Assembly: GCF_014274465.1 (NCBI RefSeq)
Contig: NZ_CP060394.1
Span: 4,216,001 to 4,280,000 of the forward strand
Direction of reading: 5' to 3'
From: Alloacidobacterium dinghuense
GTDB lineage: Bacteria; Acidobacteriota; Terriglobia; Terriglobales; Acidobacteriaceae
Length of the DNA: 64,000 nt
Below are positions 13,811 through 63,780 of the stretch, one piece after another (the first letter of the stretch is position 1; each line of letters starts with the position of its first letter). The notes under the pieces were generated by a model. The model saw only the letters and a program-made list of their open reading frames with translations. It searched no databases and was not told the DNA's origin. The translations under genes and the position numbers were made by a program.

Positions 13811-13952
13811 CGTACCAGTTCCTTACCGCAACTTCCACGTTCGACCGTTGAGCGGGTGTCACAATTGCTGGATTTTTTTTAGTCCGGGAGCAACGAGAGG
13901 CGTCTACCGAAAACTACCGCCTCCGGCGTACTACCTATTTGGGAGGTCATCA

Positions 13953-17276: not shown

Positions 17277-17330
17277 TGCATGATCCGCAGCTGTCAATAA
17301 AGCCGAGCACTGCATCGTTGAGGAGATGGC

Positions 17331-19508: not shown

Positions 19509-19568
19509 ATGCACGTTGCCCCAAAAACCTGCCTTTCAAAGAAATTATTGGCCAGGAAATATTCAACG

Positions 19569-21737: not shown

Positions 21738-21866
21738 ATCAACCAGGATCCTGAGCGTGTCGCATCAGTTTCTGCTGGAATCGCAAAGAATTGTCTGTTG
21801 CCAAAGCCGCTCTATAGGTTAATATTCCTGCGCCAGTCTCACATCCTCTACGTCCAGGTGATTCCT

Positions 21867-23144
21867 ATGTCGACCCGTGTTTCTGTGTGTCTTCCGAACC
21901 GCGCCTTCACCTTCGTCCTCGCCAGTCTGCTTGTTCCCTTCTTTCTTGCGCGCCCCAGTCTCGCCAATGAGCCGCGCCACGATAATCAATCCAAAGTGGT
22001 CGGCGGCTACTTCGAAGAGTGGAGCATTTATTTCGCCGGTTACAACATTGCCAATTTACAGGCCAATGGCGTTGCAGATAGGCTCACGCATTTGACGTAC
22101 GCTTTCGGCGACGCCACGCCCACCGGCTGCGCCATTGCGGATAGCTGGGCTGATTATCAGGACCCGTCTCTTCCAAGCGTCAGCGGCGCGACCTACACCG
22201 GGCCGCTGTACGGGAATTTCGCCGCGCTGCAGCAGCTCAAGCAACTGCATCCGAATCTGAAAGTGCTGATCTCGCTCGCCGGAGCCGACGGTTTTTCGGC
22301 CGCTGCGAGTACCGCGGCAGGCCGTCAGGCCATGGTCTCCAACTGCATCGACCTCTTCGTCAAGGGCAATCTCGCGACCGGAATTTCTGCAGCAGGAGTT
22401 TTCGACGGCATCGATATTGATTGGGAATTTCCCAGTGCCGCTGACACGGTAAACGCAACGCTGCTGCTCCAGGAATTTCGCAAGCAGCTCGACGCCTTGG
22501 GAAAGGCCAACCACAAGCATTATCTGCTGACCATGTTCGGACCCGCCGGCCAGCAGAATTTCTCTAACATCCAACTGGCCGAAGTCGCCCGCCAGCTGGA
22601 CTTTTTCAATGTGCAGGGCTATGACTTCCACGGCACATGGGAGACTTCGACCAATCACGCGTCTCCCCTCTTCGACGACAAGCAGGATCCCGACTCCTCC
22701 GAGAATTTTTACATCGACTACACGATTCGCTCCTATCTTCAGGCTGGCGTCCCCGGAGAAAAGCTCGTCCTCGGCATTCCCACCTATGCGCGCGGTTGGA
22801 CTGGAGTTCCGAGCACCGGCCATGGCCTGTATCAAACCTCCACCGGTCCAGCTCCGTTTCCTTCGTCCGATTACCTGCAAACGCCCGGCGTGATCACCTA
22901 TCTCACGCTCACCGGCCTGACCGGCTACACGCGCCACTACGATTACCGCCGAATCGCCGTGTGGCTCTATGATCCCGGCACGCAAACCTTCTGGTCCTAC
23001 GATGACCCTGTCACCGTGTGGCTCAAAACTGCGTACGTCCGCACGCGCGTTCGTGGGGGCCTCGGCGGCGCATTTGTCTGGGCTCTCAAGGACGACGACG
23101 CCAACGGCACCATCGTGAAAACTATGGCCGCCGGCCTCAATTAA
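21867..23144 (+). CDS. Secreted GH18 chitinase
   Basis: The protein of about 425 residues has a signal peptide (to about residue 34) and a GH18 barrel: KVVGGYFEEWSIY at the start, LKVLISLAGADGFS in strand 3 and the catalytic FDGIDIDWEFP (acid Glu187), with later VQGYDFHGTWE, KLVLGIPTYARGW and GAFVWALKDDD strands. GH18 enzymes cut beta-1,4 links in chitin with substrate-assisted catalysis. No carbohydrate-binding module is attached. AGGTGA seven bases before ATG 21867 supports this start rather than the longer frame from 21798. The gene belongs to the receptor-hydrolase series, which suggests fungal or arthropod cell-wall material as food. Confidence 0.93.
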   Translation: MSTRVSVCLPNRAFTFVLASLLVPFFLARPSLANEPRHDNQSKVVGGYFEEWSIYFAGYNIANLQANGVADRLTHLTYAFGDATPTGCAIADSWADYQDPSLPSVSGATYTGPLYGNFAALQQLKQLHPNLKVLISLAGADGFSAAASTAAGRQAMVSNCIDLFVKGNLATGISAAGVFDGIDIDWEFPSAADTVNATLLLQEFRKQLDALGKANHKHYLLTMFGPAGQQNFSNIQLAEVARQLDFFNVQGYDFHGTWETSTNHASPLFDDKQDPDSSENFYIDYTIRSYLQAGVPGEKLVLGIPTYARGWTGVPSTGHGLYQTSTGPAPFPSSDYLQTPGVITYLTLTGLTGYTRHYDYRRIAVWLYDPGTQTFWSYDDPVTVWLKTAYVRTRVRGGLGGAFVWALKDDDANGTIVKTMAAGLN

Positions 23145-23456
23145 TCCCGCGCCACTGCCTCAAATCGCTGTACAGCGCTTTGAGGCAGATCGTCGGATGA
23201 CTTGATCCGGGTGCTCCAGCATGAGCGCGCGGAAGGAATGTTCTTGAGTGTCCAGGTGATCTCCTGCCTTCACTCATCTATACGACCGTGGCAACGTACG
23301 AGGATGCAGAAAGATTGGCTCATCGAGATCAGGTGTTTGCCGTGAGAGGCTGCTCATTGGACGATCTCGAAAACAAAGGGTTTCGGACTCCTGGAAGGCT
23401 GACAATGAAATCAGGCAATGCGGTAGAGCACGGCGCGCAAGATACAATTCCCGGTA
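23145..23456. other. Intergenic region between chitinase and mannosidase genes
   Basis: A long hairpin starts eleven bases after the chitinase stop (see 23155-23188). I see no convincing gene or palindromic operator in the remaining 268 bases. The GH92 gene may have its own promoter here. Confidence 0.5.
23155..23188 (+). terminator. Hairpin after the chitinase gene
   Basis: Arms CTGCCTCAAA and TTTGAGGCAG enclose an inner CGCTG/CAGCG stem with a two-base loop, an almost perfect 34-base inverted repeat. No T-run follows, so it may stabilise the mRNA end or act with Rho rather than end transcription by itself. Confidence 0.6.
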
Positions 23457-48966: not shown

Positions 48967-48994
48967 AATAGCCGGAACCTACGTTCCGGCTATT
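48967..48994. terminator. Bidirectional hairpin between tex and the Sel1 gene
   Basis: AATAGCCGGAAC and GTTCCGGCTATT form a perfect 12-bp stem with a CTAC loop, placed between two convergent genes. It overlaps the last codons of the minus-strand gene. Confidence 0.75.
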
Positions 48995-49673
48995 GGTCTT
49001 CAAGGGCCTTCAGTGCATCATGCGCATCGGGATACCCAAGTTTGTCGGCCTTCTCGTACCAGGCAATCGCCTGCTGAGTGTTTTTCGTAACACCCTGGCC
49101 TTTCTCAAATAAATAGCCGACTTTGTATTCTGCCTCGGGACGGTTCTGCTTAGCCGCTTCCATGTACCAGTTCATTGCTGCAGCATAGTCCTGTTTAACG
49201 CCATCCCCCTGCTCGTACATTTCACCGAGCCTGAATTGTGCGTCGGCGCGCCCCTGCTCTCCGGCCTTGGCATACCACTTCGCGGCCTCTGCAGAATCCT
49301 TCGTCGTTCCGCGTCCGCGATCATACATCTGGGCAAGCCTGAACTCGGCGTCCTTATGGCCTTGCTTGGCAGCTAGCGTGTACCACTTCACTGCTTCGGT
49401 TGGATTCTGCGGGTTTACGGCTACGTCGAGCAATCCGCCGAGACGATATTCGCCATCGGCGTAGCCTTGGTTTGCCGCCATCTGCATCCACTTGACCGCT
49501 TCCTTGATATTTCGCGGCGTAGCAAACGCGTACGACATGCCAACCTGCACTTGAGCAGCCGGATCTCCGGCAAGCGCCTTCTGCTTGGTTGCCTCGATGT
49601 TGTCCTGACCTGCTACGCCAAACGCCAGCGGCGCACTTACAGCTAGCAATACCACTGAAATCCATTGCTTCAT
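48990..49673 (-). CDS. Exported Sel1-like repeat protein
   Basis: The protein of about 227 residues has a signal peptide (ending AFGVAGQ) and six or so Sel1-type helical repeats of 36 residues, each with the 'A-x-x-x-L-G-x-M-Y-x-x-G-x-G-V-x-x-D-x-x-x-A-x-x-W-Y' pattern, for example DAEFRLAQMYDRGRGTTKDS and EAEYKVGYLFEKGQGVTKNT. Sel1 repeats bind proteins and serve as scaffolds in the periplasm. GAGGGGAT nine bases before ATG 49673 fixes the start. It ends at a shared hairpin opposite tex and lies 56 bp after the giant Ig-like gene, possibly in the same transcript. Confidence 0.9.
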   Translation of the reverse strand: MKQWISVVLLAVSAPLAFGVAGQDNIEATKQKALAGDPAAQVQVGMSYAFATPRNIKEAVKWMQMAANQGYADGEYRLGGLLDVAVNPQNPTEAVKWYTLAAKQGHKDAEFRLAQMYDRGRGTTKDSAEAAKWYAKAGEQGRADAQFRLGEMYEQGDGVKQDYAAAMNWYMEAAKQNRPEAEYKVGYLFEKGQGVTKNTQQAIAWYEKADKLGYPDAHDALKALEDQ

Positions 49674-49728
49674 AACGCGATCCCCTCTTGTTGATAGCCT
49701 CGTTGCACAATTGACGCAGGCCGCTTGT

Positions 49729-52700
49729 TTACTGCTCAAAGTGCAGGATTGTAGGCTGCGTCACTGTTGCATCGACGTCCAGTCCAACCATTTCAGATGG
49801 ACTGATCACCCAGAGCGCGATTGTTGCCGCGCTGGGAGACGTCAACAAGATACTTCCTCTTCCGTTGTTGGAGACCGCTGAGACGGAGTAAGTTCCGGCA
49901 AGAGTTTGATTGGGGCTCAACGCCGAACTCTTGCTTATATCCTCTGCACCAGCTAGCGTGCCCTGCCCCCGGACGTTGCTGCTTCCATCAAAGCTGCTCT
50001 CGCCCGAGTACAGCGGCACTGCCTGCACAATTGGCTCTCCGGAACCGAGCAGGTATGTTCCAAGAGCGTCGGAGTTGGAGAATGGTGGCACAATCGTCAC
50101 CGGATCCATCTGGCCGACACTTGCAGCTGCCGTTGATGCATCCATGACAAAGCCCTGATTCGGACCTGTGGCGTACACGTACCAGATGATGGGTCCGGTA
50201 CTCGGACTATTCAGGTTCAATGTGCCACGGCCATTCAACTCAAGGTCATATGCCCCGGTCATTGAACCCCCCACGGTGATGTTGCCGCCATTGTTCTGAT
50301 CGAAGGTGACACCCACATTGACAGTGCCATCGAATTGGAGCCGTCCAACCATGTCTTCTGGCGCGCTTCCATTTGTGCCACTGAGATTAAAGATGGAACC
50401 ACCTTTGAACGAGGATGAAGTGAAGGGAGCGCCGTTCTGCAGCACCGCTGGTCCGCCGATGATCACTCCGTTCTGGAATATCGGATCGACAGAGACCATC
50501 AGAAATTCGTTCGCAGAGACAACGTAGAGCGCGAAGTCGACAGTTCCGCCGCCGAAACCTGGAATCAGCAGAGTGGCTGTGCCGCGACCCGTGGAATCCA
50601 CAGTGTAGATACCATTGAAGGAGGCGAAGGTTGGAGAGACGGAGCCGCCATCATTCACATCGAGCGTGCTGCCTGCGATGAAGCCGATGCCATCCGGGAA
50701 CATGAGGCCGAGAGCTCCGACGCGAGCGCCGCCCATGTCGGAACCGGACAGACCCATCACATATCCGTTCGCCAGAACAGAAGGATCGAAGGCGGTCGGA
50801 TCCTGCTTCAGGATGACACCTGAACCCCGGACACCTGACTGATCGAAGCTGACAAAACGCCCCTTATTACCTAACAGGTTGAGCGCAAATTTATAGGTGA
50901 ACGCTCCGAGCGGACTGTTGATCGTCATCGTGCCCCGGTTGTCGCTGCTTACCGTGTATGTACCTGTGATCGCAAGGTCCGTTGCTGGCGCAGCAACGTT
51001 GTTCACGTCTTCGGTGCCGGTTGTAATCCGGCCCTGACCATTTGCGGTGAATGAACCGGCAGCCTGGTAGACGCCGTTGCTATCGAAGCCGGTGAAGAAG
51101 AAGGCGTACTGGCCATCAAGCTTCGAGTTGTTGGTGGAAACCAGCGTCACCGTAGCGGATGCGGAAGCGGATGTATTTGCTTGCGACGTGGCTTTTACCG
51201 TGACCGTCGCCGGGCTTGGCAAACTCGCAGGGGCTGTGTAAAGACCCGCCGTGCTGATCGTGCCGCAAGTGCTGCCGGAGCAGCCTGTTCCGCTCACACT
51301 CCACGTAACCGCGGTGTTGGATGAGCCGGCGACACTGGAGCGGAATTGCTGCGTCGTGCTAACCGCAACAATTGCATTTGTGGGAGAAACTGTAACTATT
51401 ACAGGCACAATAACAGTTACCGTTGCTGTCCCCGTTGTTATTCCATCGGCAACCGATGTAGCCGTTACCGTAACTTGGGCCGGATTGGGAACGCTGGCGG
51501 GTGCTGTGTATAAGCCGCTGGCAGTGATGGTGCCGCAGGCTGATCCAGAGCAACCGGAGCCGTGAAGGGTCCACGTCACCGCTGTATTCGCCGCACCCGT
51601 CACTTTCGCGGTGAATTGCTGGCTCGCATTTTCCGCAACCTGCACCGGATTCGGAGTCACCGCTACCGAAATTTGCTGCATGATGATGACGGTGGCGCTG
51701 GCGGATTTTGTAGAGTCAGCGGATGATGTCGCGGTAACCGTCACAAACGAAGGATTCGGAACAGTTGAAGGAGCGGTATAGAGACCGGCTGTACTGATAG
51801 TTCCGCATGTCGAGCCGGTGCAACCAAGCCCGGTGACACTCCATGTGACTGCTGTGTTGGTCGATCCTGTAACCGTGGCCTTAAATTGCTGTTGGGCACT
51901 TACGTTCACTTGTGCCGTAGTGGGCGTGAGGCTTACGCTCACCGAGGAAGGTGCTGAAATGGTTACAGTCGTCGAGCCCTTTATGGTGGCATTCGAGAGC
52001 GATGTCGCGGTGACGACTACAGTATTGGGACTCGGTGCGGTCGTGGGAGCCGTGTAAAGGCCGGTTGAGCTGATTTGCCCGCAGGTGATGCCGAAGCATC
52101 CATTTCCTGTCACACTCCAGAGAACAACCCCACTTTGCGGACCGGTCGCGCTGAACTGTATCTGAGCGCCAGGCTTTACCTGAGGATTGCTTGGCGAGAT
52201 CGTAAGTACTGAAGCGGCGACTATGGTTACGTGTGCCGAACCTGACTGGCTAGGTGCTGCGGCCGAGGTCGCGACGACGGTGACAGTTGGTGACGCGGGT
52301 ACGGTTGCGGGTGCGGTGTATAAGCCGAAGTTCGATATCGAGCCGCATGCGGCACCGCTGCACCCTGTTAAACTCCAGGTGACCGCTGTGTTGGTGGTAC
52401 CGCTCACTGTTGCCGTGAACTGCTGCTGACCTCCGGCCGGCACTTGTGCAGTAGTGGGAGAGACGGCAACTGAAATGGAAGAAGCGGCTTCGATTACCAC
52501 GGTGGCCGAAGCGGACTTCGTAGTATCAGCAACGGACGTTGCCGTCACCGAAGCCAGAGCTGGATTCGGAATTATTGCAGGCGCCGTGTAAAGGCCGGCA
52601 GAGGTGATCGTCCCGCACGATCCGGATACGCAGCCGATGCCCGACACCGTCCAATTCACCGCAGTGTTAGAACTTCCTGTAACGGTTGCCTTGAATTGCT

Positions 52701-53088
52701 GCTGTCCCTTAACAGAAAGCGTGGCGCTAGTGGGAGAGATCGAAACGGCAACCGTAGTCGCGGACCCGATCGTAACAGTCGCGGTCCCCATAGTGCCGTC
52801 AAGAATGGAGGTCGCCGTCACCGTAACCGTTGGCGGGTTTGGTGCGGCGGCAGGAGCCGTGTAGAGACCACTTGAGTCGATTTGCCCGCAGCTGATGCCA
52901 CTGCAGCCAGCACCCGAAAGACCCCATACTACGATCGTGGCTCCAGTCGCGCTGAACTGTACCTGGGCGCCAGGCTTCACCTGGACTGAACTCGGCGAGA
53001 CAACCACTGCCGCTTTAGCCTGACCCGCCAGACTGAGGAGGGAGAGTACGAAGAGTATGATCCCAATTGGCCTATAAACCCGCTTCAT
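49729..53088 (-). CDS. Giant exported Ig-like repeat protein
   Basis: The protein of about 1119 residues has a signal peptide (to about residue 27) and seven tandem Ig-like repeats of about 85-95 residues, each with a QFxATVTG strand, a TAVTWSV strand, a conserved disulfide loop 'GC-SGS-CGTI' and a GLYTAPATVPNP-type turn. The C-terminal third (about 660-1115) holds about five copies of another beta-module (DGQYAFFFTGFDSNGVYQAA, GSFTANGQGRIT, then a GTYTVSSDNRGTMTI-like part). Such proteins are frequent in Acidobacteriota and are probably displayed or secreted adhesins. GGGGGAA before ATG 53088 supports the start. The DNA of the repeats is itself repetitive but is not a CRISPR. Confidence 0.88.
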   Translation of the reverse strand: MKRVYRPIGIILFVLSLLSLAGQAKAAVVVSPSSVQVKPGAQVQFSATGATIVVWGLSGAGCSGISCGQIDSSGLYTAPAAAPNPPTVTVTATSILDGTMGTATVTIGSATTVAVSISPTSATLSVKGQQQFKATVTGSSNTAVNWTVSGIGCVSGSCGTITSAGLYTAPAIIPNPALASVTATSVADTTKSASATVVIEAASSISVAVSPTTAQVPAGGQQQFTATVSGTTNTAVTWSLTGCSGAACGSISNFGLYTAPATVPASPTVTVVATSAAAPSQSGSAHVTIVAASVLTISPSNPQVKPGAQIQFSATGPQSGVVLWSVTGNGCFGITCGQISSTGLYTAPTTAPSPNTVVVTATSLSNATIKGSTTVTISAPSSVSVSLTPTTAQVNVSAQQQFKATVTGSTNTAVTWSVTGLGCTGSTCGTISTAGLYTAPSTVPNPSFVTVTATSSADSTKSASATVIIMQQISVAVTPNPVQVAENASQQFTAKVTGAANTAVTWTLHGSGCSGSACGTITASGLYTAPASVPNPAQVTVTATSVADGITTGTATVTVIVPVIVTVSPTNAIVAVSTTQQFRSSVAGSSNTAVTWSVSGTGCSGSTCGTISTAGLYTAPASLPSPATVTVKATSQANTSASASATVTLVSTNNSKLDGQYAFFFTGFDSNGVYQAAGSFTANGQGRITTGTEDVNNVAAPATDLAITGTYTVSSDNRGTMTINSPLGAFTYKFALNLLGNKGRFVSFDQSGVRGSGVILKQDPTAFDPSVLANGYVMGLSGSDMGGARVGALGLMFPDGIGFIAGSTLDVNDGGSVSPTFASFNGIYTVDSTGRGTATLLIPGFGGGTVDFALYVVSANEFLMVSVDPIFQNGVIIGGPAVLQNGAPFTSSSFKGGSIFNLSGTNGSAPEDMVGRLQFDGTVNVGVTFDQNNGGNITVGGSMTGAYDLELNGRGTLNLNSPSTGPIIWYVYATGPNQGFVMDASTAAASVGQMDPVTIVPPFSNSDALGTYLLGSGEPIVQAVPLYSGESSFDGSSNVRGQGTLAGAEDISKSSALSPNQTLAGTYSVSAVSNNGRGSILLTSPSAATIALWVISPSEMVGLDVDATVTQPTILHFEQ

Positions 53089-53139
53089 AAATTCCCCCAA
53101 TGGTCCCTTTCTGGCGGATACCGACAGATGGTTACGCGA

Positions 53140-54183
53140 TTATTTCTGTGAAACCTGCTGCTTTGCGTGCGTGGTCGCAGCAAGATTCAGTTGCTGGTTC
53201 ACCATGTCTTTGAGAGTGCCCAAGTCAACCACTCCGCTAAAGAAATGGCCATTCACAAAGAAGCTGGGAGTGCCCGTTAATCCCAGGCCCTTCGCTTCTT
53301 CCAGATCCTTCTTTACTGCGGCTGCTTCTGTTCCGTTGTCCAAGCACGCATCGAAGCGATCCGTATCCAGTCTAAGAACTTGTGCATGCTCTTTGAGAGC
53401 CGCTACGTCTGTCTGCTTGCTGTAAAACAGAACGTCGTGGTACTCCCAGAATTTCCCCTGCTCGCCGGCGCAACGGGCTGCTTCCGCGGCCTTTTCTGAC
53501 GTATGGTGCATGGGCAGAGGGAAGTCCTTGTACACGATGGTCAGCTTGTCGCCATATTCCTTTTTCATCTGCTGGATTTGGGGATTGACCTTCTGGCAGT
53601 AGGGGCATTCGTAGTCCGCAAACTCAACCAGAGTCACCTGTGCATCCGGCGAGCCTTTAGCATAGGCCTTCGCGATGTCCACATCGGCGACGGGAGGCGT
53701 GAGCAGGATGTTGATATTCGCCTGCTTGCGTAAATTGTCGACAAACGCAGCGCGCGCCTTGGCGCGGCGCAATTCGCGGATATGCTGCAATACTTCATCC
53801 CGAACTGAAGCGTATGGTTCCTGTGTATCAAGGCCTTCGTAGTACACCTCGAGCTGATCCTCGGTTGGATCCTTCACGTCCTTGTAAACTTCGGCGTTCA
53901 ACAGCTGATCAAGCGAAATGTTTCTCCTCTTTGCCTCATCCGCCAGCAACTGGTTATCAATCAGTTCCTCCAGTGCCTTCCGCTCATTCAGGTAATACTG
54001 GTACTTCGCCTGCAGAAGCTTGCCGCCTTCACTGCGTTGCAAATCTGCATACGTCAGGTTGTCACCGCTCACTTTGGCGACCACTCCTTTTGGATCCGGG
54101 TCACTCTGTCCCCACAGGTTCGCTACAGCGCTCAGACTCAAGCCCACAACCAGCAAGCAGGCGCAACGTAATCTACTATTCAT
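53140..54183 (-). CDS. Exported DsbA-like oxidoreductase with N-terminal chaperone-like domain
   Basis: The protein of about 347 residues has a signal peptide (to about residue 25), a SurA/parvulin-type N-terminal helical region (about 32-155; VVAKVSGDNLTYADLQRSEG, RKALEELIDNQLLADEAKRR) and a thioredoxin-fold DsbA-like domain. The redox site is CPYC (Cys193 and Cys196 in YECPYCQKV), with the cis-proline loop in GTPSFFVNGHFF. It should form or isomerise disulfides in exported proteins. It is encoded directly upstream of the giant Ig-like gene and 146 bp from the eight-cysteine proteins, all of which need disulfides. AAGGAAA supports ATG 54183. Confidence 0.9.
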   Translation of the reverse strand: MNSRLRCACLLVVGLSLSAVANLWGQSDPDPKGVVAKVSGDNLTYADLQRSEGGKLLQAKYQYYLNERKALEELIDNQLLADEAKRRNISLDQLLNAEVYKDVKDPTEDQLEVYYEGLDTQEPYASVRDEVLQHIRELRRAKARAAFVDNLRKQANINILLTPPVADVDIAKAYAKGSPDAQVTLVEFADYECPYCQKVNPQIQQMKKEYGDKLTIVYKDFPLPMHHTSEKAAEAARCAGEQGKFWEYHDVLFYSKQTDVAALKEHAQVLRLDTDRFDACLDNGTEAAAVKKDLEEAKGLGLTGTPSFFVNGHFFSGVVDLGTLKDMVNQQLNLAATTHAKQQVSQK

Positions 54184-54329
54184 CGCGGATTTCCTTTTCT
54201 GTCTCACGAGAGCAAGGTTTATAAAGTGCGCCAGGTTTGTTTCTCGACATCCCTGGCGCACAAGCAGAATATTCTGTCATTTGGGCACGTGATCGAATCG
54301 CGATACGTACCTCTGTTTCCATTGCGACA

Positions 54330-54911
54330 TTAGTCCCCAGTACCGCAGCTGCAGATACCTTGTCCGCTGCCCAGGATGTTCACGAATGCGCACTGAGCCT
54401 GCAGGTTGGCAAGTTCGGTTGCACCCAGGGTAGAGTCGGAGGACTCGGTTTCAGTAATCGGAAAGGCTGCGCCCACAGGATTCTGGATATGAGTCACCCA
54501 GGCGCGCAGGTTTGCCTTGGGGGATACGTTTGCAGTCGGATCGCACGGCGAGTTGTTCACTGCCGCAGACACAACCTTGATGACACCATTTGTTGACACC
54601 TTACCGGTCAGCGGGTTGGAAGTCAGGTCGCGGCGAACGGAAAGCGTCCGCAGACCATTGTGTGTCTCAACGCATCCGCAGCACTCTGTGAGCTGCTGGT
54701 CAGCATCAAACACGTAAATCATGGCGCAGAGGTTTCCGTACGTCAGTCCGGGGTTGTCAATACGGACAGTGGCATCGGGAGCCGGAGCCGCATTGTTCGA
54801 GAAGTAGTTGACTTTGTAGACGTCCTGAGCCGAGGCAACGCCAGCGCCGATCGAAACCAGGCCAACGACCACCAGGGCCAAGAACAGAGTCTTACAGAAC
54901 GTAAGTTTCAT
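54330..54911 (-). CDS. Secreted eight-cysteine protein (copy 1)
   Basis: The 193-residue protein has a signal peptide ending VASAQ and a single domain with eight cysteines in the mature part (62, 77, 78, 80, 123, 174, 187, 189). Landmarks are LCAMIYVFDADQQLTECCGC, NGLRTLSV, NPLTGKVSTNGVIKVVSA and the C-terminal GSGQGICSCGTGD. I know no named family. The same domain forms the C-terminus of the lipoprotein at 58784. It differs from copy 2 at only residues 94-95 (RD against SN). GGAGGAATT before ATG 54911 fixes the start, and a CTAA-N6-GGACTAA dyad lies 133 bp upstream. The Cys-rich, secreted nature suggests a compact disulfide-bonded surface or adhesion module. Confidence 0.9.
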   Translation of the reverse strand: MKLTFCKTLFLALVVVGLVSIGAGVASAQDVYKVNYFSNNAAPAPDATVRIDNPGLTYGNLCAMIYVFDADQQLTECCGCVETHNGLRTLSVRRDLTSNPLTGKVSTNGVIKVVSAAVNNSPCDPTANVSPKANLRAWVTHIQNPVGAAFPITETESSDSTLGATELANLQAQCAFVNILGSGQGICSCGTGD

Positions 54912-55043
54912 TCGTAATTCCTCCTGGGCGCCGATCGGCTGCGGGGAAAAATCAGCTCCCCAGCGCTTGGCCAAAACTCTAACCATCTTTCGACTAATTA
55001 CAATTACCTAGTGGACTTAGCCCAATGTTCTATTCCCGGCAAA

Positions 55044-55060
55044 CTAACCCTCTGGACTAA
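55044..55060. promoter_or_regulatory. Dyad CTAACCCTCTGGACTAA upstream of copy 1
   Basis: It matches CTAR-N6-GGACTAA and has the same position relative to its gene as the site before copy 2. The block between it and the gene (CTAG...TAGCCCAAT...TATTCC) is also conserved between the two copies. Confidence 0.55.
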
Positions 55061-55249
55061 TACTCTGAAGGTTATAAACATATTTTTCCTGTCATCCTGA
55101 AACAATATGTGGGGGAGTGTTGGTCTACTTGGGGGCATTGCATTGCGTGCGCCCTTTTGCTGGCACGCACGCAGATCCAGCGAAGTATTCTTCGTCCTTA
55201 GACACGTCCCCAGACCGGGAAACGTGCCTTTGCTCGTTACTACGACAAC

Positions 55250-55831
55250 TTAGTCCCCAGTACCGCAGCTGCAGATACCTTGTCCGCTGCCCAGGATGTT
55301 CACGAATGCGCACTGAGCTTGCAGGTTGGCAAGTTCGGTTGCACCCAGGGTAGAGTCGGAGGACTCGGTTTCAGTAATCGGAAAGGCTGCGCCCACAGGA
55401 TTCTGGATATGAGTCACCCAGGCGCGCAGGTTTGCCTTGGGGGATACGTTTGCAGTCGGATCGCACGGCGAGTTGTTCACTGCCGCAGACACAACCTTGA
55501 TGACACCATTTGTTGACACCTTACCGGTCAGCGGGTTGGAAGTCAGGTTGGAACGAACGGAAAGCGTCCGCAGGCCATTGTGTGTTTCAACGCATCCGCA
55601 GCACTCTGTGAGCTGCTGGTCAGCGTCAAACACGTAAATCATGGCGCAGAGGTTTCCGTATGTCAGTCCGGGGTTGTCAATGCGAACGGTGGCATCGGGA
55701 GCCGGAGCCGCATTGTTTGAGAAGTAGTTGACTTTGTAAACGTCCTGAGCCGAGGCAACGCCAGCGCCGATCGAAACCAGGCCAACGACTACCAGGGCCA
55801 GGAACAGAGTTTTACAGAACGTAAGTTTCAT
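55250..55831 (-). CDS. Secreted eight-cysteine protein (copy 2)
   Basis: This 193-residue protein is almost identical to copy 1, including the signal peptide, all eight mature cysteines and the GSGQGICSCGTGD end; only residues 94-95 differ. At DNA level there are more than a dozen differences, nearly all silent, so both genes are under selection or are kept alike by gene conversion. The similarity begins at the stop codon and reaches about 36 bases before the start, including the ribosome-binding site. A partially conserved promoter follows, with the dyad at 55962-55979. Both genes lie on the same strand, 338 bp apart. Confidence 0.9.
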   Translation of the reverse strand: MKLTFCKTLFLALVVVGLVSIGAGVASAQDVYKVNYFSNNAAPAPDATVRIDNPGLTYGNLCAMIYVFDADQQLTECCGCVETHNGLRTLSVRSNLTSNPLTGKVSTNGVIKVVSAAVNNSPCDPTANVSPKANLRAWVTHIQNPVGAAFPITETESSDSTLGATELANLQAQCAFVNILGSGQGICSCGTGD

Positions 55832-55961
55832 TCGTAATTCCTCCTGGGCGCCGATCGGCTGCGGGGAACGACAGCTGCCAGCGCTGATGCAAGACTTTAT
55901 CTATCTCTGTGGCGTTTACAACTACCTAGGGGGTCTAGCCCAATCTCTTATTCCTCGCAAA

Positions 55962-55979
55962 CTAGCCTGCTGGACTAAG
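55962..55979. promoter_or_regulatory. Dyad CTAGCCTGCTGGACTAAG upstream of copy 2
   Basis: It is aligned with the site at 55044 with respect to the start codon (131 against 133 bp) and shares the CTAR-N6-GGACTAA form. Confidence 0.55.
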
Positions 55980-56137
55980 CCTGTTCAAGCGACAACCTCA
56001 AACGCCCTGCGTTAGCTGTCAGCTTGTAGCAATCTTTGGGGGCTTATAAGTAGAAGAGCCTGTTCCTGGCCGATCGCTGATACGGGTTTGCGCGTAGGTC
56101 GCTCTTCGCCAGGAAGCTAGTTTACCTTGCGTGACAG

Positions 56138-57166
56138 TTACTGCTGTGGTTGCGACTGCTGCTGGGCTGCAGCCTGACTATCCAGCAACTGCTCCTGCTG
56201 CTTTTGGAGGTCGTTCAACACCTCTCCCACTGAACGGTGAGACTCTGCGGCCATTTGCTGCACGTTGATCCCTGTTGGAACCGAGGAAGGAATCGCGGTT
56301 GGTTGAACCGGCAGTGGCGCTTGCGGCTCAGGAGCAGTCGCCGCTTGCTGCTCGTCTTGCTGAACACCCTGCCCACCATAGAGTGATGGCTCCTCAGTTT
56401 CGCTATGAAGCTGAGCTGACGCAACTGTAGTCGTGGCCTGAGATGTTCTCAGGGTGAGGACCAGTCGCTTTGCCATCTGCGGATTTTCTGACGAGCTCTG
56501 AATCAAGTAGTTGTAATTGGAACCTTCAAGGAGTGCCACCAACGCGTCCCGCACTGGCGCCGGCCCGATGTCGAGATACATTCGCTCATTCTCGGGCTGG
56601 TTCGGCGCTTCGATCGTGATCCCCGTCGCTGCTTTCACGGCATTCATGACCGTGGAAAGGTCCTCACCCTGAGCCTTTATCGTTAGCTTTCCACCGGAAA
56701 GTATTGCGATTGGCTGCGGTGCGGGTTTCCGCACTACTTCGCCAGCCGCTTTGGGCGTCGCATTCTCGGTTGAAGCTTCTCGCGAAGAATCTTCCTTGTG
56801 TTCACGCTTGCAGAATTGTCCCTGTGCATCGACATTCTCGTCAGAAGAAGTTTTCGTCGAGAGTTTCAGGTGGTCTTTGATGGAGGGCTCGCCAGCTTCT
56901 TCAGAGGACGATTGAACACTCCGCTTCGCTGTACTCGGCTCACCATTGCAGATCGCGCCATTCGCGGATGCCTCGGCCGAGGCTGCAGTAGACTGCTGTT
57001 GCGGCGCGAAGCCACTTGCGTGGCTATATTGAGGAGCTGAAGCGAACGTACCAAGCGCTAAGAACGTAACGGCTGCCATGACACTTTTGTGGCTTAATCC
57101 GAAAGCACTAGTTATAAGTGGCGTGCAATCATGGTTGTTTATTAAAGTTGAGTTAGCGTGTTGCAC
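56138..57166 (-). CDS. Exported STN-domain protein with low-complexity flanks
   Basis: The 342-residue protein has an N-terminal hydrophobic export segment (about 28-50), a disordered Ser/Glu/Lys-rich region (55-145), one secretin/TonB short N-terminal-like domain (about 158-240; GKLTIKAQGEDLSTVMNAVK, EAPNQPENERMYLDIGPAPV, DALVALLEGSNYNYLI) and a Gln/Pro-rich tail ending in poly-Gln. STN domains normally sit at the periplasmic end of secretins or TonB receptors that receive signals; here no channel or barrel is attached. The GTG start at 57166 is supported by GAGGAGGG. The promoter is shared with the divergent LuxR gene and has a dyad 68 bp from the start. Confidence 0.75.
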   Translation of the reverse strand: MQHANSTLINNHDCTPLITSAFGLSHKSVMAAVTFLALGTFASAPQYSHASGFAPQQQSTAASAEASANGAICNGEPSTAKRSVQSSSEEAGEPSIKDHLKLSTKTSSDENVDAQGQFCKREHKEDSSREASTENATPKAAGEVVRKPAPQPIAILSGGKLTIKAQGEDLSTVMNAVKAATGITIEAPNQPENERMYLDIGPAPVRDALVALLEGSNYNYLIQSSSENPQMAKRLVLTLRTSQATTTVASAQLHSETEEPSLYGGQGVQQDEQQAATAPEPQAPLPVQPTAIPSSVPTGINVQQMAAESHRSVGEVLNDLQKQQEQLLDSQAAAQQQSQPQQ

Positions 57167-57504
57167 AGGGCCCTCCTCTACTGCGGCCTAGATTTCATCA
57201 TAGGTAGGAATCAGGCGGCAATCATTCATTTGGCTTAGTCCGGTGAACTAGGCGAAATATGGGGGAAGCTAATGCTAATGGGTATGCCCAAAGGACGCAA
57301 TACTTAACTCTTGACAATTGTCTGCTCTCAGGACAGACTTTGTGACGGTGTAATGCTCATGTCGTAGTCAAGACGCTTGAAGTCTTACAAAGAGCAAAAG
57401 TGATTGTTCTGCCATCTTGCACACCCCCCACTTCGCTCAACAAGTTGTTTATCCGCTGGACATCTCCAGTGGGCGTGCGCAAATAACTGATTTAAGGAGG
57501 GGTC
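57167..57504. other. Shared promoter region of the STN-domain and LuxR genes
   Basis: The 338-bp divergent region contains the dyad at 57234-57251 and the inverted repeat GACAATTGTC within TTGACAATTGTC (near 57312), a possible -35 region for the LuxR gene. No gene is seen. Confidence 0.6.
57234..57251. promoter_or_regulatory. Dyad CTTAGTCCGGTGAACTAG in the divergent promoter
   Basis: Read on the minus strand it is CTAG-TTCACC-GGACTAAG, the same form as the sites upstream of the two eight-cysteine genes. Confidence 0.55.
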
Positions 57505-58047
57505 GTGCGTGGCATGACGGTTTCGACTCCGGGGTTTATTCTGCTTGATGCGAAGCTCCACCCCGTCGCTTATAATTCTGAGGCAGTTCAGATTCTCTGT
57601 TTTCCGATGAAGCCGGACCGTGTTAAGCAGGTTCCGCTCTTTCTCTCCGACAAGATCCGTTCAAGCCTTCTCAATCGGCACGTTTCCGGCGAACCTGAGT
57701 TCGTTCGGGAATACAAGTCCGGTCAACGCCTTTATACCTGTCGCGCCTTTCATGTTGATAGTGGGGGCGTAGGCGAACGCAAGATGCCTTTCGATGTTGC
57801 TTTGCTGCTGGAGCGGCACCTGTCCGGTGTTGCGGCTCTGGGCGATCTGTCGCGTCAGTTTGACCTGACCGCTCGCGAATGCGAAACCGTAGCGCTTCTC
57901 CTCGAAGGCCTGACGAGTAAGGAGATCGCTGCTCGGATGAACATTAGCCCCAATACGGTCAAAGCATTTCTTCGCCTGGTGATGGTCAAGATGGATGTAT
58001 CGACACGGTCGGGAATCGTTGGCAAATTCGTAGGTCCGATGCCCTAA
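57505..58047 (+). CDS. LuxR-type transcription regulator
   Basis: The 180-residue protein has an N-terminal PAS-like region (about 8-100; GFILLDAKLHPVAYNSEAVQ, a common ligand- or redox-sensing fold) and a C-terminal LuxR helix-turn-helix (121-175; LTARECETVALLLEGLTSKE, SPNTVKAFLRLVM). There is no receiver domain, so it responds to a small molecule or partner instead of a kinase. The GTG at 57505 has AAGGAGG four bases upstream. Its place in the middle of the eight-cysteine locus, and the dyads in front of the surrounding genes, make it the best candidate for their regulator; this is inference. Confidence 0.88.
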   Translation: MRGMTVSTPGFILLDAKLHPVAYNSEAVQILCFPMKPDRVKQVPLFLSDKIRSSLLNRHVSGEPEFVREYKSGQRLYTCRAFHVDSGGVGERKMPFDVALLLERHLSGVAALGDLSRQFDLTARECETVALLLEGLTSKEIAARMNISPNTVKAFLRLVMVKMDVSTRSGIVGKFVGPMP

Positions 58048-58134
58048 ACCATAAATTTATCTATGGTAACCACCGCGAACTAATCCATATGAAGAATTTA
58101 CTGAAGGCGTCTTTCAGCGCGATCATTTGTCAAC

Positions 58135-58455
58135 GTGAAAGTGACAACGGCACAAGATCGACGCCATCAACCCCAGCCTCTTGGCTACATGGAGATGCTG
58201 GTTCGGCCGCTCCCGCAGCTCGGAACTGAGGCAACGGCAAAACCCTCCACTCTGCCAGTACGCATACGCACAATCAACGAGGACAGCGTTTGCGTAGTCA
58301 CACAGCGTCCACTGCAAAAGTCGTCCGTCGTGCGCTGCGAGATTCCTATTGGCGATTCCGCGATGAAGATCCCCACGCTTATGCACGTACGCTGGACTAG
58401 AAAGCAGAAGCTCCAGTCAGACGGCTACTTATCTGAACTCTCATTCCTACTATAA
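58135..58455 (+). CDS. Small PilZ-like protein
   Basis: The 106-residue frame from GTG 58135 ends with a strand pattern like that of a PilZ domain: LPVRIRTINEDSVCVVTQRP, a QKSSVVRCEIPIG strand and TLMHVRWTRKQKLQSDGYLS. PilZ proteins often bind cyclic di-GMP through RxxxR and DxSxxG motifs; these are not clearly present, so ligand binding is unproven. It follows the LuxR gene by 87 bp. No ribosome-binding site is convincing. It may be a real small gene in the LuxR transcript. Confidence 0.4.
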   Translation: MKVTTAQDRRHQPQPLGYMEMLVRPLPQLGTEATAKPSTLPVRIRTINEDSVCVVTQRPLQKSSVVRCEIPIGDSAMKIPTLMHVRWTRKQKLQSDGYLSELSFLL

Positions 58456-58586
58456 TTTTCTGCAATAAATTGTTTCTCAAAATTCCGCAGTAATTTCTTT
58501 TCTCAACTAAAGCCTTAGTGCTATTCTCATTCGTTCTCCCCAGTAATTACCCCCTTAAACCTATTCCCTCTTGCTAGCTGATGCGT

Positions 58587-58607
58587 ATAGGCCATTTGGA
58601 TTAAGCC
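58587..58607. promoter_or_regulatory. Dyad ATAGGCCATTTGGATTAAG (distal)
   Basis: It follows the form TAG-N7-GGAYTAA, and the continuation AAGCC matches the site at 55962. Confidence 0.45.
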
Positions 58608-58706
58608 AGCAAGGTTAACACGCAAGTAGTGCTACGTACTATGTAGACCTCAATGGGGATTGCAAAGTACAAATCGCGAGTTACATTCACTGCGTACCGT
58701 ATGCGA

Positions 58707-58725
58707 CTAGACCAATAGGACTAAC
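58707..58725. promoter_or_regulatory. Dyad CTAGACCAATAGGACTAAC (proximal)
   Basis: The CTAG-N7-GGACTAA site lies 60-80 bp before the lipoprotein start and overlaps the palindrome ACTACGCGTAGT. Confidence 0.5.
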
Positions 58726-58743
58726 TACGCGTAGTCTTCACGG

Positions 58744-58761
58744 CTAGCTATAGATAGCTAG
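58744..58761. promoter_or_regulatory. Palindrome CTAGCTAT-AG-ATAGCTAG
   Basis: Perfect 8-base arms separated by AG lie about 25 bp before the likely start codon, close to where a promoter or operator would sit. Confidence 0.4.
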
Positions 58762-58783
58762 TCAATCAGTAAGGGGGATAGGT

Positions 58784-61192
58784 TTGGTGCCTATGTCTGT
58801 TCAGAGCCATGCAACTGCTTTTCTGTCACGACTTTCTGCCTGCACAATGTTCTTTCTAACCGGACTGTTGATCTCGGCATGCGGAGGCGGGAGCGACACG
58901 CAGCAATCAGAAATCATCGCAATTATTCCTCACACTGCGTCCGTCTCCCTAGGCCAGACAGTTCAATTCCGGGCTACCGGCTATATGAATAACGGCCAAA
59001 CTCAGGACCTGACCAGTTCGGTTTCATGGCAAAGCTCGAATACCGGCATTGCAACCGTCAGTCCGAGCGGACTCGCGACCTCGGTGACTCCTGGAACCAT
59101 CAACATGACTGCAAGTTGGAACGGTCACTCATCGACCGCCTCCCTCGTTGTAGCCAAGGCCGCGCTCGAAACGCTGACGATTACCCCGCCGTCTGCTTCG
59201 GTCGTCTTAGGTCAGGCCGCCCAGCTTACCGCTATAGGAACCTTTAGTGATAAGACAACACAGGACTTAACATCAGTCGCAGACTGGAGTAGCGCTCAGC
59301 CGGCGGTGGCCACAGTGAACACTGCTGGGCTTGCCACGTCAAAGGCTGTTGGGAATACCACCGTGACTGCGTCGGTCGGCAGCATTACTGCTTCGAATCA
59401 ACTAGCTGTCTCGCCGGCAGCACTCAGCGCAATTGTTGTAGGGAGTGCGGCCGCTGCTACTCCGCTAGGCACCAAGGAGCAGTTCACCGCACAGGGTGTT
59501 TACACCGATGGAAGCAAAGTTGACATTACAAATCAGGTGACTTGGACAAGTACGCCGTCCGGAATTGTCGCCATCGGAACCAACGGACTTGCTGCTACCC
59601 ACGCCGTGGGGAACGTTACGGTTACCGCTGTATCGGCCGGAGTGACTGGCACAGGCTCATTTACGGTATCGCCCGCGGCACTTGTTTCGATCGCCGTTCA
59701 GGGTACAAGCGCTACTGTGCCTCTTGGGGTGAACGCGCAGTTTACTGCAACGGGCACCTATACAGATGGGAGTACGAGTGACATCACGAGCACAGCGAGT
59801 TGGACGGGCCTGCCTGCGGGAATCGTAAATGTTGCACCAAACGGCCTGGCCGCGTCCAAGGCCGCAGGAACTGCCACGATCACCGCTACTGCGTCGGGAA
59901 TCAGCGGGTCCAATAAGCTTACGGTCACATCAGCAACTCTTGTTTCTATCGCCGTTCATAGTCCGAGCGCAGCGCTTCCGTTAGGAACAAACGGGCAACT
60001 CGGCGCCACTGGGACCTATACAGACGGAAGTACAGCCGATCTGACGAGCACTGCTACTTGGACCAGCTCGCCCGCTGGAATCGTCGCTGTGAGTTCCGCT
60101 GGCGCCGTCTCAACGAAGGCGGTCGGAAACGCGGCGGTCACCGCTACGTCCGCTGGCAAGTCAGGTTCTGGCAAAGTCGCCGTGTCATCTGCGGCGCTTG
60201 TGTCCATTCAGGTAAGCAGCTCTCGGTCTTCGTTGCCGCTTGGGAGTACACAGCAACTCAACGCCACCGGTGTCTACACGGATAGCAGTACCCAGAATCT
60301 AACAGGCGCCGTTCAATGGGTAAGTGCATCGCCTGATGTTGTTGGAGTGAGCAATGCGGGCCTGGCGACTGCTAAAGCGCAGGGGGCAACGAATGTGCTC
60401 GCGTCCTCTGGCGCGGTGACCGGCGCAACGGGACTGAACGTAGCCGCAGCAGAACTCACGTCGATCGGTATTTCGCCGGCTGCGCCGACAGTGCCACTTG
60501 GAAGCAATTTACAGCTTTCCTCTCTTGGGTCCTTCACGGATGGTAGTTCTCAGGATGTGACCTCGCAGATCACATGGAGTGTCGACAGACCCGATATCGC
60601 GGTTATCACGCCCGGCGGCATGATAACCGGCCTGCAGGTGGGATCCGCAGTAGTAACTGCATCGCTGAACGGTGTCCAAGCATCGGCGACGATCACCGTG
60701 CAACCTCTCGCAATTGTTGGCTATTTCGACGCTACCAGCGGCGTCGACACGACCCTGCGCATCACCAATCCAGCCATAACCGGGCAGGATTTGTGCGCCA
60801 TGATTTATGTCTTCGACAACGATCAACAGCTGAGCGAGTGTTGCGGTTGCCTAGTCTCACAGAATGGACTCAGAACTCTCTCGCTCAACAATAACTTGCT
60901 GAACAATCCGCTTACCGGAGTGCAATCGAAATCTGGAACGGTTATGGTTGTCTCTGCGGACTATGCCTCGAATCTCTCATGCAACGCCAGCGCGATGACG
61001 CCTACAGGTGCGCAGATTGCATGGTCTACCCACTTGCTTAAGTCGAGTACAGGTCAAACTGTAAGCACAGAAGATACCTTCTCGGCCTCGCCATTGAATG
61101 CAACGCTCTCGTCCTCGCTGCAGGCCCAATGCTCATTCGTCCAAACGCTTGGCAGCGGGCAAGGCATATGTAGCTGCGGCACAGGTGACTAG
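58784..61192 (+). CDS. Ig-repeat (Big2) surface lipoprotein with C-terminal eight-cysteine module
   Basis: The 802-residue protein has a lipoprotein signal (LLISAC, Cys33), seven Big2-type Ig-like repeats of about 85 residues (each with 'VPLGxxxQFTATGTYTDGST', 'TSTATWTSS' and 'VGNATVTAT' strands) and the same eight-cysteine domain as the two small genes (about 640-802; DLCAMIYVFDNDQQLSECCG, then the end GSGQGICSCGTGD). All eight cysteines are kept. The repeats probably hold the Cys module away from the membrane. The start is TTG 58784, GTG 58787 or ATG 58793, with AAGGGGGA upstream. Two dyads lie in its promoter. Confidence 0.9.
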   Translation: MVPMSVQSHATAFLSRLSACTMFFLTGLLISACGGGSDTQQSEIIAIIPHTASVSLGQTVQFRATGYMNNGQTQDLTSSVSWQSSNTGIATVSPSGLATSVTPGTINMTASWNGHSSTASLVVAKAALETLTITPPSASVVLGQAAQLTAIGTFSDKTTQDLTSVADWSSAQPAVATVNTAGLATSKAVGNTTVTASVGSITASNQLAVSPAALSAIVVGSAAAATPLGTKEQFTAQGVYTDGSKVDITNQVTWTSTPSGIVAIGTNGLAATHAVGNVTVTAVSAGVTGTGSFTVSPAALVSIAVQGTSATVPLGVNAQFTATGTYTDGSTSDITSTASWTGLPAGIVNVAPNGLAASKAAGTATITATASGISGSNKLTVTSATLVSIAVHSPSAALPLGTNGQLGATGTYTDGSTADLTSTATWTSSPAGIVAVSSAGAVSTKAVGNAAVTATSAGKSGSGKVAVSSAALVSIQVSSSRSSLPLGSTQQLNATGVYTDSSTQNLTGAVQWVSASPDVVGVSNAGLATAKAQGATNVLASSGAVTGATGLNVAAAELTSIGISPAAPTVPLGSNLQLSSLGSFTDGSSQDVTSQITWSVDRPDIAVITPGGMITGLQVGSAVVTASLNGVQASATITVQPLAIVGYFDATSGVDTTLRITNPAITGQDLCAMIYVFDNDQQLSECCGCLVSQNGLRTLSLNNNLLNNPLTGVQSKSGTVMVVSADYASNLSCNASAMTPTGAQIAWSTHLLKSSTGQTVSTEDTFSASPLNATLSSSLQAQCSFVQTLGSGQGICSCGTGD

Positions 61193-61683: not shown

Positions 61684-61769
61684 TGCCGCGCTTTCCGGAC
61701 CCAGAGCACAAAGCTTTTTGTGCCCATCTTGGTCTCTCTGAACACCGAGCATATGATGTTGCCAGATGA
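61683..61769 (+). CDS. 28-codon overlapping ORF between the membrane protein and dinB
   Basis: The ATG at 61683 lies inside the TGA of the upstream gene, and its own TGA (61767-61769) overlaps the dinB ATG as ATGA. The peptide begins MPRFPDPEHKAFC and is neutral, with one Cys. No family is known. The double overlap suggests translational coupling, either for a real micro-protein or to control dinB translation. Confidence 0.45.
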   Translation: MPRFPDPEHKAFCAHLGLSEHRAYDVAR

Positions 61770-62833
61770 CAGTGCGCAAGATCGTCCATATCGACATGGA
61801 CGCGTTTTATGCCTCGGTGGAACAACGGGACGATCCGCTCCTGCGCGGCAAACCGGTCGTAGTCGCATGGAAGGGTAATCGGTCTGTAGTCTGCGCAGCT
61901 TCTTATGAAGCACGAAGTTTCGGCGTGCGTTCAGCCATGCCGAGTGTTCGTGCAGAGCGTTTGTGCCCCGTCGCCGTCTTCATCCCGCCTGATTTTCCTC
62001 GATATCGCGCCGTCTCGCGCAGCGTACGCGAGATTTTTGCACGCCACACCGATCTGATCGAGCCTCTGTCGCTCGACGAGGCCTATCTCGATGTGACCGA
62101 AAACAAGAGCAACCTGTCGACAGCTACCCGCGTAGCGCGAACCATCCGGGAACAGATTCGCGAAGAGTTGCATCTGACCGCTTCTGCGGGCGTTGCCCCC
62201 AACAAGTTTCTGGCAAAGATTGCGTCCGATTGGCGCAAGCCCGATGGTCTTTTCGTAATCCAGCCCGAAGATATCGACACCTTTCTGCCGCCGCTGCCTG
62301 TCGGCCGCATTCCAGGCGTGGGAAAGGTCACTGAAAGGAGGTTGGAGGAAATCGGCATTAGGACCGTGGGAGACCTGCGCAGTCTGGAGTTGGCAGTTCT
62401 TGAGAGCCGTTTTGGGCGCTATGGAATCCGGCTGCACGAGCTTGGCCGCGGCATAGACCACAGCCCGGTTGTTCCTGACAGGCCAACGAAGTCCATCTCC
62501 GCGGAGGATACTTTCGAGCATGACGTACTGTTAGAGCATACAGAGCCGATGATCCGCCGACTCGCTGAGAAGGTCTGGATGGCTACCAGCAAAGAGTCTC
62601 GCATCGCACATACAGTGGTTCTCAAGCTGAAAACAACGGAATTTAACATTCTGACCCGCAGCCATACACCGGCTTCTCCTCCGTCTTCTTGTGAAGAGTT
62701 AACAGAAATTGCGTTGTCGCTGAGAGGACGAGTGGAGCTGGGACCGGAGCGACGTTTCCGCCTTGTCGGCGTGGGCCTGAGTAATTTCTGCGACCACAGA
62801 GAAACTCCTGCGCAGCCAGTGCTCTTCGAATAA
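61766..62833 (+). CDS. dinB: DNA polymerase IV (Y-family)
   Basis: The 355-residue protein has the Y-family motifs: catalytic Asp10 in IVHIDMDAFYASVE, the VVAWKGNRSVVCAASYEAR fingers region, Asp104-Glu105 in SLDEAYLDV, the SAGVAPNKFLAKIAS motif, the helix-hairpin-helix GVGKVTERRLEEIGI and the little-finger region near 240-350. It carries out error-prone translesion synthesis. The final QPVLFE resembles a beta-clamp-binding peptide. Its ATG overlaps the 28-codon frame, so expression is coupled to the upstream gene. No obvious LexA box was noticed. Confidence 0.95.
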   Translation: MTVRKIVHIDMDAFYASVEQRDDPLLRGKPVVVAWKGNRSVVCAASYEARSFGVRSAMPSVRAERLCPVAVFIPPDFPRYRAVSRSVREIFARHTDLIEPLSLDEAYLDVTENKSNLSTATRVARTIREQIREELHLTASAGVAPNKFLAKIASDWRKPDGLFVIQPEDIDTFLPPLPVGRIPGVGKVTERRLEEIGIRTVGDLRSLELAVLESRFGRYGIRLHELGRGIDHSPVVPDRPTKSISAEDTFEHDVLLEHTEPMIRRLAEKVWMATSKESRIAHTVVLKLKTTEFNILTRSHTPASPPSSCEELTEIALSLRGRVELGPERRFRLVGVGLSNFCDHRETPAQPVLFE

Positions 62834-62880
62834 CTTCAACCGGGTTGCATAATCACGAGCCTCCGTGCAATCTGATAGCC

Positions 62881-63780
62881 ATGCCGGAGTTGCCCGACAT
62901 AGCCGCCTACATCAGCGCACTGGAATCTCGCATCGCCGGACAGCCGCTTGAGCATGTCCGAATCAACAGCGCCTTTCTACTGCGTACGGCACGGCCGCCC
63001 ATTTCCGATGTTGAAGGCCATGTCGTGGCAGAGTTACGCCGTATCGGCAAGCGCATTGCCATGAAATTCGACAATGATTTGTGGCTCGTGTTCCACCTGA
63101 TGATTGCCGGCCGACTGCACTGGAAAGCAGCAGGCGCGAAACTGGCCGGGCGGAATAGTCTGGCAGCGTTTGATTTTCCCAATGGTTCCCTGGTGCTGAC
63201 TGAAGCGGGCACAAAGCGACGAGCATCCTTGCACGTCTTTGCGAATGAAGAGGAATTGCGTTCGGTCGATCCTGGAGGTATTGAAATTTTCTCAAGCAAT
63301 CTCGATTCGTTCCGCATAGCGCTCACCGCGGAGAACCGCACCCTCAAACGCGCTCTTACTGATCCGCGTATCCTCAGCGGGATCGGCAACGCCTATTCCG
63401 ACGAGATTCTGTATGCGGCGCAGTTGTCACCCATTACTCTCACGCACAAGCTGCAACCTCAGGAATGGGAGCTGCTGTTCACAGCTACCCGCAATACTTT
63501 GCAACTCTGGATAGACCGGCTCAGCAATGAGGCGAAGTCTGGATTTCCGGAAAAGGTCACAGCATTTCGCAAGGACATGGCAGTGCACGGACGCTATGGA
63601 GAACCATGCCCGCGATGCGGCCAAAAAATTCAGCGCATTCGTTATGCCGATAACGAAACAAATTATTGCGCAAATTGCCAGACCGGCGGAAAGGTCCTCG
63701 CTGATCGTAGCTTGTCGCGTCTGCTGGGATCGGATTGGCCGCGTACACTGGACGAGTTGGAAGCGCTCAAGCGACGCTGA
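62881..63780 (+). CDS. Formamidopyrimidine-DNA glycosylase family protein
   Basis: The 299-residue protein begins MPELPD, so Pro2 becomes the N-terminal nucleophile after Met removal, which decides the start over the TTG at 62845. It has the H2TH region (LTDPRILSGIGNAYSDEILY) and a C-terminal zinc finger with four cysteines (EPCPRCGQKIQ and NYCANCQTGGK). The family removes oxidised purines and cuts at abasic sites. The region after Pro2 (IAAYISALESRI) and a C-terminal extension past the finger differ from classical MutM, so it may be a Nei-like or Fpg2 member. It follows dinB by 47 bp. Confidence 0.9.
   Translation: MPELPDIAAYISALESRIAGQPLEHVRINSAFLLRTARPPISDVEGHVVAELRRIGKRIAMKFDNDLWLVFHLMIAGRLHWKAAGAKLAGRNSLAAFDFPNGSLVLTEAGTKRRASLHVFANEEELRSVDPGGIEIFSSNLDSFRIALTAENRTLKRALTDPRILSGIGNAYSDEILYAAQLSPITLTHKLQPQEWELLFTATRNTLQLWIDRLSNEAKSGFPEKVTAFRKDMAVHGRYGEPCPRCGQKIQRIRYADNETNYCANCQTGGKVLADRSLSRLLGSDWPRTLDELEALKRR

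Follow-up and report, generated by a model that had tools for sequence, protein, structure and literature searches.

The window, that is the whole 64,000-nucleotide stretch of Alloacidobacterium dinghuense analysed here (C1:4216001–4280000 of the single-contig 6.27 Mb genome), encodes three copies of an eight-cysteine module, two of them as free tandem proteins and the third mounted at the end of a lipoprotein with a stalk of immunoglobulin (Ig)-like repeats. The module is quite possibly a lectin-like surface binding module with its own DsbA-type foldase, made both free and displayed on a stalk under LuxR/PilZ control, and this is put forward as a tentative reading. Under this reading, the module would be an exported, disulfide-stapled beta-sandwich binding domain with an ASRT-like fold, and its ligand would be a polysaccharide or a matrix component, most likely bound in a lectin-like manner. 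The cell would produce it free as well as at the far end of the Ig-stalk lipoprotein, and one binding surface would thereby be presented both on the cell itself and in its environment. Control of the module probably lies with the LuxR and PilZ members of the cluster, and the DsbA-type protein encoded beside the free module would act as a dedicated disulfide-forming foldase, which probably also serves a large Ig-repeat protein of the same cluster.

The first free module protein (55250–55831, minus strand) has 193 residues and consists of a signal peptide of ~28 residues, judged by eye, followed by the 165-residue module with its eight cysteines. The second, tandem copy (54330–54911, minus strand) is also of 193 residues when read from the ATG that lies behind AGGAGGAAT and is common to copy 1, whereas the listed open frame starts further upstream at 54986. 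The two copies differ in 17 of 582 bases and in two residues, which would fit either a recent duplication or gene conversion. The stalk lipoprotein (58793–61192, plus strand; open frame from 58784) has 799 residues from its first ATG, a lipobox-like ISAC recognised by eye and seven Big_2 stretches, the Pfam match being far above the curated cut-off (144.4 versus 22.8 bits). Its module begins at residue 637 of 799 and occupies 60701–61192 including the stop codon. It aligned with the free proteins from end to end with ~50% identity and an expectation value (E) of 5.4e-44, which is far past chance, and the eight mature cysteines (34, 49, 50, 52, 95, 146, 159 and 161) fell in register. The preliminary description, made from the letters of the window, had claimed that the two 193-residue proteins share one module with the lipoprotein end, and all the motifs it quoted were present in the alignment. 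Its picture of a cysteine-rich exported module existing both free and on a lipoprotein stalk was likewise borne out, and the arrangement was found to be kept in seven genomes. The genome of the window contains five copies in all, because two solitary free copies at 3591554 (86% identical) and 2227697 (79%) add to the three in the window.

That no named family came to mind for the module agreed with the searches, as neither Pfam nor NCBIfam recognised the module in its free form, on the stalk or in the relatives scanned. A PDB sequence search with the free protein returned nothing below E 0.45, and viral structures gave no match at E ≤ 0.001. The sole PDB match of the module profile was CXCL9 (E 0.0063), which was judged to be a chance match of CxC spacing and was set aside. 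Searches of the literature at the level of listings turned up no paper on the eight-cysteine module. The profile search proposed in the preliminary description found the module in 15 of 399 genomes and 13 of 135 genera of the class-wide sample, in the families f1 (that of the window), f5, f6 and f7, and the same 15 carriers were obtained with a single protein and with the profile. The profile also recovered all 14 known carriers in targeted genome searches. The phylum-wide sample yielded 1 of 396, the window genome itself, and inside one class of Acidobacteriota the occurrence was patchy. Among relatives of the window genome, 6 of 61 had the module, counting the window genome and one doubtful case (G024) that was not scored as a carrier since its match was weak and broken (27% identity, E 6.7e-4, two stops). 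The three other species of the genus had none, two of these three genomes being incomplete. Paracidobacterium acidisoli, an acidobacterium of the class Terriglobia, was among the closest named relatives in the module search. Copy numbers in the class and phylum surveys are lower bounds, as the best eight candidates per genome were scored; thus G371 showed at least eight copies in the class survey and 15, one of them a fragment, in the targeted profile search. The maximum was 16 copies in G029, all free-sized and spread over many contigs, some in tandem (L009, L013, L016, L018–L030), which make up a lineage-specific expansion. One free copy of this genome, in the L013 locus, is followed by a DsbA-type gene.

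The DsbA-like gene noted in the preliminary description as lying close by proved to be a conserved partner of the module. It is encoded at 53140–54261 on the minus strand (ATG at 54183), and its product matched Thioredoxin_4 (112 bits versus a cut-off of 23.2) and DSBA (69 versus 25.6) and carries CPYC. These features are those of DsbA-type oxidoreductases, but the cluster enzyme differs from them in a SurA_N-like front (below the cut-off), in its place behind the free module and in tracking the module across genomes. The co-occurrence was scored in 55 genomes comprising 18 module carriers and 37 chosen non-carriers, all of the latter being rechecked with the module profile and found to be without it (0/37). 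A full-length relative of the enzyme at E ≤ 1e-80 was found in 16 of 18 carriers and in none of the 37 non-carriers, and at E ≤ 1e-50 one non-carrier was added (G053, 35% identity). The Fisher values of this association (5e-12 and 8e-11) take no account of common descent and serve for description only. In 15 of the 16 genomes, the enzyme is encoded in the orientation of a free module and 132–367 bases behind it, measured from match to match (169 bases in G036), and in the remaining genome (G025) it stands at the start of a contig. The reading frames of the free module and the enzyme were 19–146 bases apart on eight contigs (L031, L032, L034, L035, L036, L038, L039 and L041). Neighbours were also counted in hand-chosen wide loci, with free and mounted copies called by the residues that precede the module within the stop-to-stop frame. 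Here, the enzyme lay downstream of none of the 24 mounted copies, the downstream stretch being short in several loci (1.7–3.6 kb for five mounted copies).

The free and mounted forms belong to a cluster of two divergent arms, which was found in seven genomes: that of the window, those of L031, L032, L038 and L039, G036 (L040 and L073) and G362 (L074). Gene families in the cluster were defined by single-linkage BLAST and by profiles made from those same clusters. The free arm runs in the order STN-like protein, free module, DsbA-type enzyme, Ig-repeat protein and Sel1 protein, and the stalk arm in the order LuxR, PilZ and stalk lipoprotein with its module. In the window, the free arm opens with the exported STN-like protein (56138–57166, minus strand), which has a weak STN core (E 0.05, below the Pfam cut-off); the L038 ortholog was similar (E 0.037, below the cut-off), and those of L036 and L074 gave no STN match. 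Behind the enzyme lies the large Ig-like repeat protein (49729–53100, minus strand; 1,123 residues, Big_2 and I-set), which is conserved in position and, being repetitive, was linked across genomes mainly by position. Each of its seven repeats carries one CxxxxC pair, 14 cysteines in total, and the DsbA-type enzyme may serve this protein as well as the module. The arm closes with the Sel1-repeat protein (open frame 48990–49760, ATG at 49673, minus strand; Sel1 E 1.1e-43). On the plus strand, the stalk arm begins with a LuxR-type regulator (57505–58047; GerE E 4.6e-14) and a protein assigned to the PilZ family by orthology (58135–58455), as its orthologs in L038 and L073 are above the PilZ cut-off. 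Partial clusters were seen near contig ends in L034, L035, L036, L111 and L112. L041, L096 and L098 have smaller versions made up of LuxR, module(s) and enzyme, to which PilZ is added in L100. In L034, an IS481-type transposase gene (3–1028) stands at the contig end after the PilZ gene, at the position expected for the stalk gene.

The structure prediction of the monomer proposed in the preliminary description returned a beta-sandwich for both forms. With the free module as lead sequence (19 sequences), AlphaFold gave a predicted local distance difference test (pLDDT) score of 80.4 and a predicted template modelling score (pTM) of 0.79, with the five models ranging from 63.0 to 80.4, and with the mounted module as lead (16 sequences) it gave 83.3 and 0.81; the two runs are not independent, as most of their sequences are in common. 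Both models showed a beta-sandwich and, close to the C-terminus, a helix of 17 residues, and the least certain part was the tail bearing the last two cysteines. When these models were compared with PDB structures by Foldseek, TM1070 (1nc7) and ASRT chains took ranks 1–16 for the free and 1–18 for the mounted module. The best match of both was 1nc7, with a TM-score by target of 0.65–0.67, and the beta-sandwich fold of TM1070 and ASRT was thereby seen in predicted models only. The passages of PMC2739507 that deal with the ASRAH fold name as its features a conserved Trp opening strand 1 and an almost invariant Asn closing strand 2, and predict H25 and C29 together with N32 as ligand residues in TM1070. 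The same passages argue that secreted members of the superfamily bind sugars, describe cell-surface lipoprotein versions of these domains, and give TM1070 as tetrameric and the exported domains as dyads or tetrads. In our alignment of 84 distinct modules (domain E < 1e-10, from the collected loci), an Asn at residue 25 was found in 79, next to the model strand at 20–24. The module is thus predicted from its models to have the architecture of an ASRT domain. The ASRT/ASRAH group (PF07100; TM1070, 1nc7; Anabaena transducer, 2ii7) offers the closest solved fold to both models; the module shares with it the beta-sandwich, the strand-2 Asn and the surface lipoprotein versions given in those passages, and it differs in its eight cysteines and in a C-terminal helix with a CxC tail. 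Membership by sequence was not supported by the insignificant profile comparison given below, and only likeness of fold is claimed. In a member of the class, a 307-residue frame (L120:1141–2061) with a signal peptide by eye gave a weak ASRT match (E 2e-4, below the cut-off), and it could perhaps be an intermediate that links ASRT to other exported beta-sandwiches.

Several observations weigh against a lectin-like module with a dedicated foldase under LuxR/PilZ control. On the side of the fold, the E-values of Foldseek were modest (1.3e-3 and 8.5e-4), and the TM-score by query was below 0.5 or 0.50. The comparison with PF07100 by hhalign was insignificant (probability 0.1%, E 0.66 and 0.43), with 39 or 19 module rows set against only seven PF07100 rows, and hmmscan of the window proteins gave no PF07100 match to the module at E 0.1. 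The module alignment has no conserved strand-1 Trp, and the His and Cys of the ASRT ligand site are not kept, Asp (69/84) and Arg (47/84) or Asn (22/84) standing there instead in a register taken from that insignificant alignment. On the side of the enzyme, the wide loci contain 42 free copies, 19 of which lack it in the downstream stretch examined, and the module-rich genomes G152 and G283, in which most modules are fused, have no full-length enzyme. Moreover, as all 55 genomes have some match to the enzyme, mostly to its DsbA half only, folding of the module might also be done by a general enzyme. The PilZ-like gene of the window itself has no Pfam match.

An alternative that we regard as unlikely is that the module is a C-terminal sorting or retention domain, by which a shared machine or anchor places the proteins, with the free forms either using this dock unfused or competing for it. 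The type IX tail and PEP-CTERM are known domains of this kind, and the resemblance is that one C-terminal piece sits on many dissimilar exported proteins of a genome. In the wide loci, 24 mounted proteins were found (6 of the family of the window and 18 of f6), and in all of them the module is the last domain behind varied front parts. The 18 proteins of f6 are exported and come from four genomes, and ten of these fusions scanned with Pfam had as fronts DUF7933/DUF11, FG-GAP, sortilin-like repeats or VWA below the cut-off, four being without a match. In a tree of the 84 modules, the rows of these genomes clustered by genome (G152, 5/5; G283, 8/8; G178, 4/4; G371, 9/9), as if fitted to one local receptor, and free and fused modules were mixed within the groups of three of the four. 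The identity of fused modules was 55–96% within a genome (33 pairs) and 33–58% between genomes (120 pairs), with slight overlap, and for one pair of proteins from different genomes (L076 of G283 and L086 of G152) the fronts were 40% and the modules 34% identical, an example of fronts that are akin across genomes without any greater closeness of their modules. Such grouping could stem from gene conversion or from a resident module being fused repeatedly, both of which would fit a module matching something shared in the cell, plain recent duplication being another explanation. The grouping would also suit the partner-and-receptor or one-structure idea of the preliminary description, although it can be explained otherwise. 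Elsewhere in the tree, G325 and G416 of one genus were interleaved, with two G416 rows far away, and the free copies of the window genome were intermixed with those of other genera. Against a sorting role stand the many copies that consist of a signal peptide and the module only, the free form of L100 with ~55 residues beyond the module (L055/L100, wrongly labelled as mounted in the tree, being a free form with a tail), and the lipobox by which the window stalk could already be anchored. The module also differs from known sorting domains in being made alone and in being cysteine-rich, and no NCBIfam sorting-domain model matched it, whether free, on the stalk or in eight relatives; no search for a sorting machine was made.

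Equally improbable in our estimate is that the mounted module is a nucleator, on which free modules would stack into a multimeric tip or fibre. The analogy is with curli and their nucleator and subunit. The joint retention of free and mounted forms in the seven genomes would suit such assembly, as would the tetramer of TM1070 and the dyads or tetrads of exported domains given in the passages of PMC2739507. The mounted module of L038 grouped with free ones, although with weak support (87/72), but the other f1 mounted modules, seven in number, formed a clade of their own (support 99/94) and are ~50% identical to the free ones, so that by sequence the two are not interchangeable. Many genomes, moreover, have solely free or solely fused copies among those found. 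A wider idea, to which we likewise give little weight, is that Acidobacteriota would possess an as yet undescribed surface-display system, in which a disulfide-stapled module with a DsbA-type foldase of its own would be made free and would also serve as an exchangeable C-terminal head of Ig stalks and of numerous other exported proteins. Within one genome, free and mounted copies would recognise each other or a shared dock and so build a modular coat out of exchangeable parts.

For the binding module with structural disulfides, the pattern of the cysteines was informative. Exactly eight were present in 79 of the 84 modules, C49 and C52 were invariant (84/84) and the CCxC and CxC motifs nearly so. 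C34 and C95 are both gone in L049, and C50 and C159 are gone together in both copies of L068, which are from one genome and perhaps reflect one event. Because of these paired losses, disulfides 34–95 and 50–159 would be expected; the loss of C34 alone in L106 counts against a strict C34/C95 pair. Among other deviating rows, L055 is truncated by its match, and L047-2186 has eight cysteines with one shifted. That CCxC and CxC would instead form a metal site or a redox centre is very improbable: their near invariance and the adjoining thiol oxidoreductase gene speak for it, but the distant cysteines are lost pairwise like disulfide partners and the signal peptide, seen by eye, leads one to expect an oxidising environment.

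PMC13362970 counts Acidobacteriota with the most abundant phyla of the soil. Their attachment and matrix building are in our view little understood. Surface proteins on Ig stalks have been described before, as has the ASRT fold; the eight-cysteine module with a co-travelling foldase, in free and mounted forms, is absent from the libraries searched. The stalk of the window is like Big_2 Ig-like surface proteins in its Big_2 repeats behind a lipobox and unlike them in that Pfam has no domain for its distal module, which is also made free from the same cluster. With its foldase, its LuxR/PilZ neighbours and its many fusion partners, the module offers a concrete handle, be it a matrix lectin, a sorting tag or an assembly joint. 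If the link of fold is true, the fold of ASRT, for which sugar binding has been argued, would be extended to a cysteine-rich surface form.

Two other loci of the window were recorded. An outer-membrane barrel with CarboxypepD_reg (13848–17276), an F5/8 type C protein (17331–19508) and a family-92 glycosidase (23457–25691) lie together at 13848–25691, and their composition suggests a glycan-use locus. Downstream of the stalk gene, at 61766–63780, genes for a DinB-type polymerase (IMS) and a formamidopyrimidine-DNA glycosylase adjoin.

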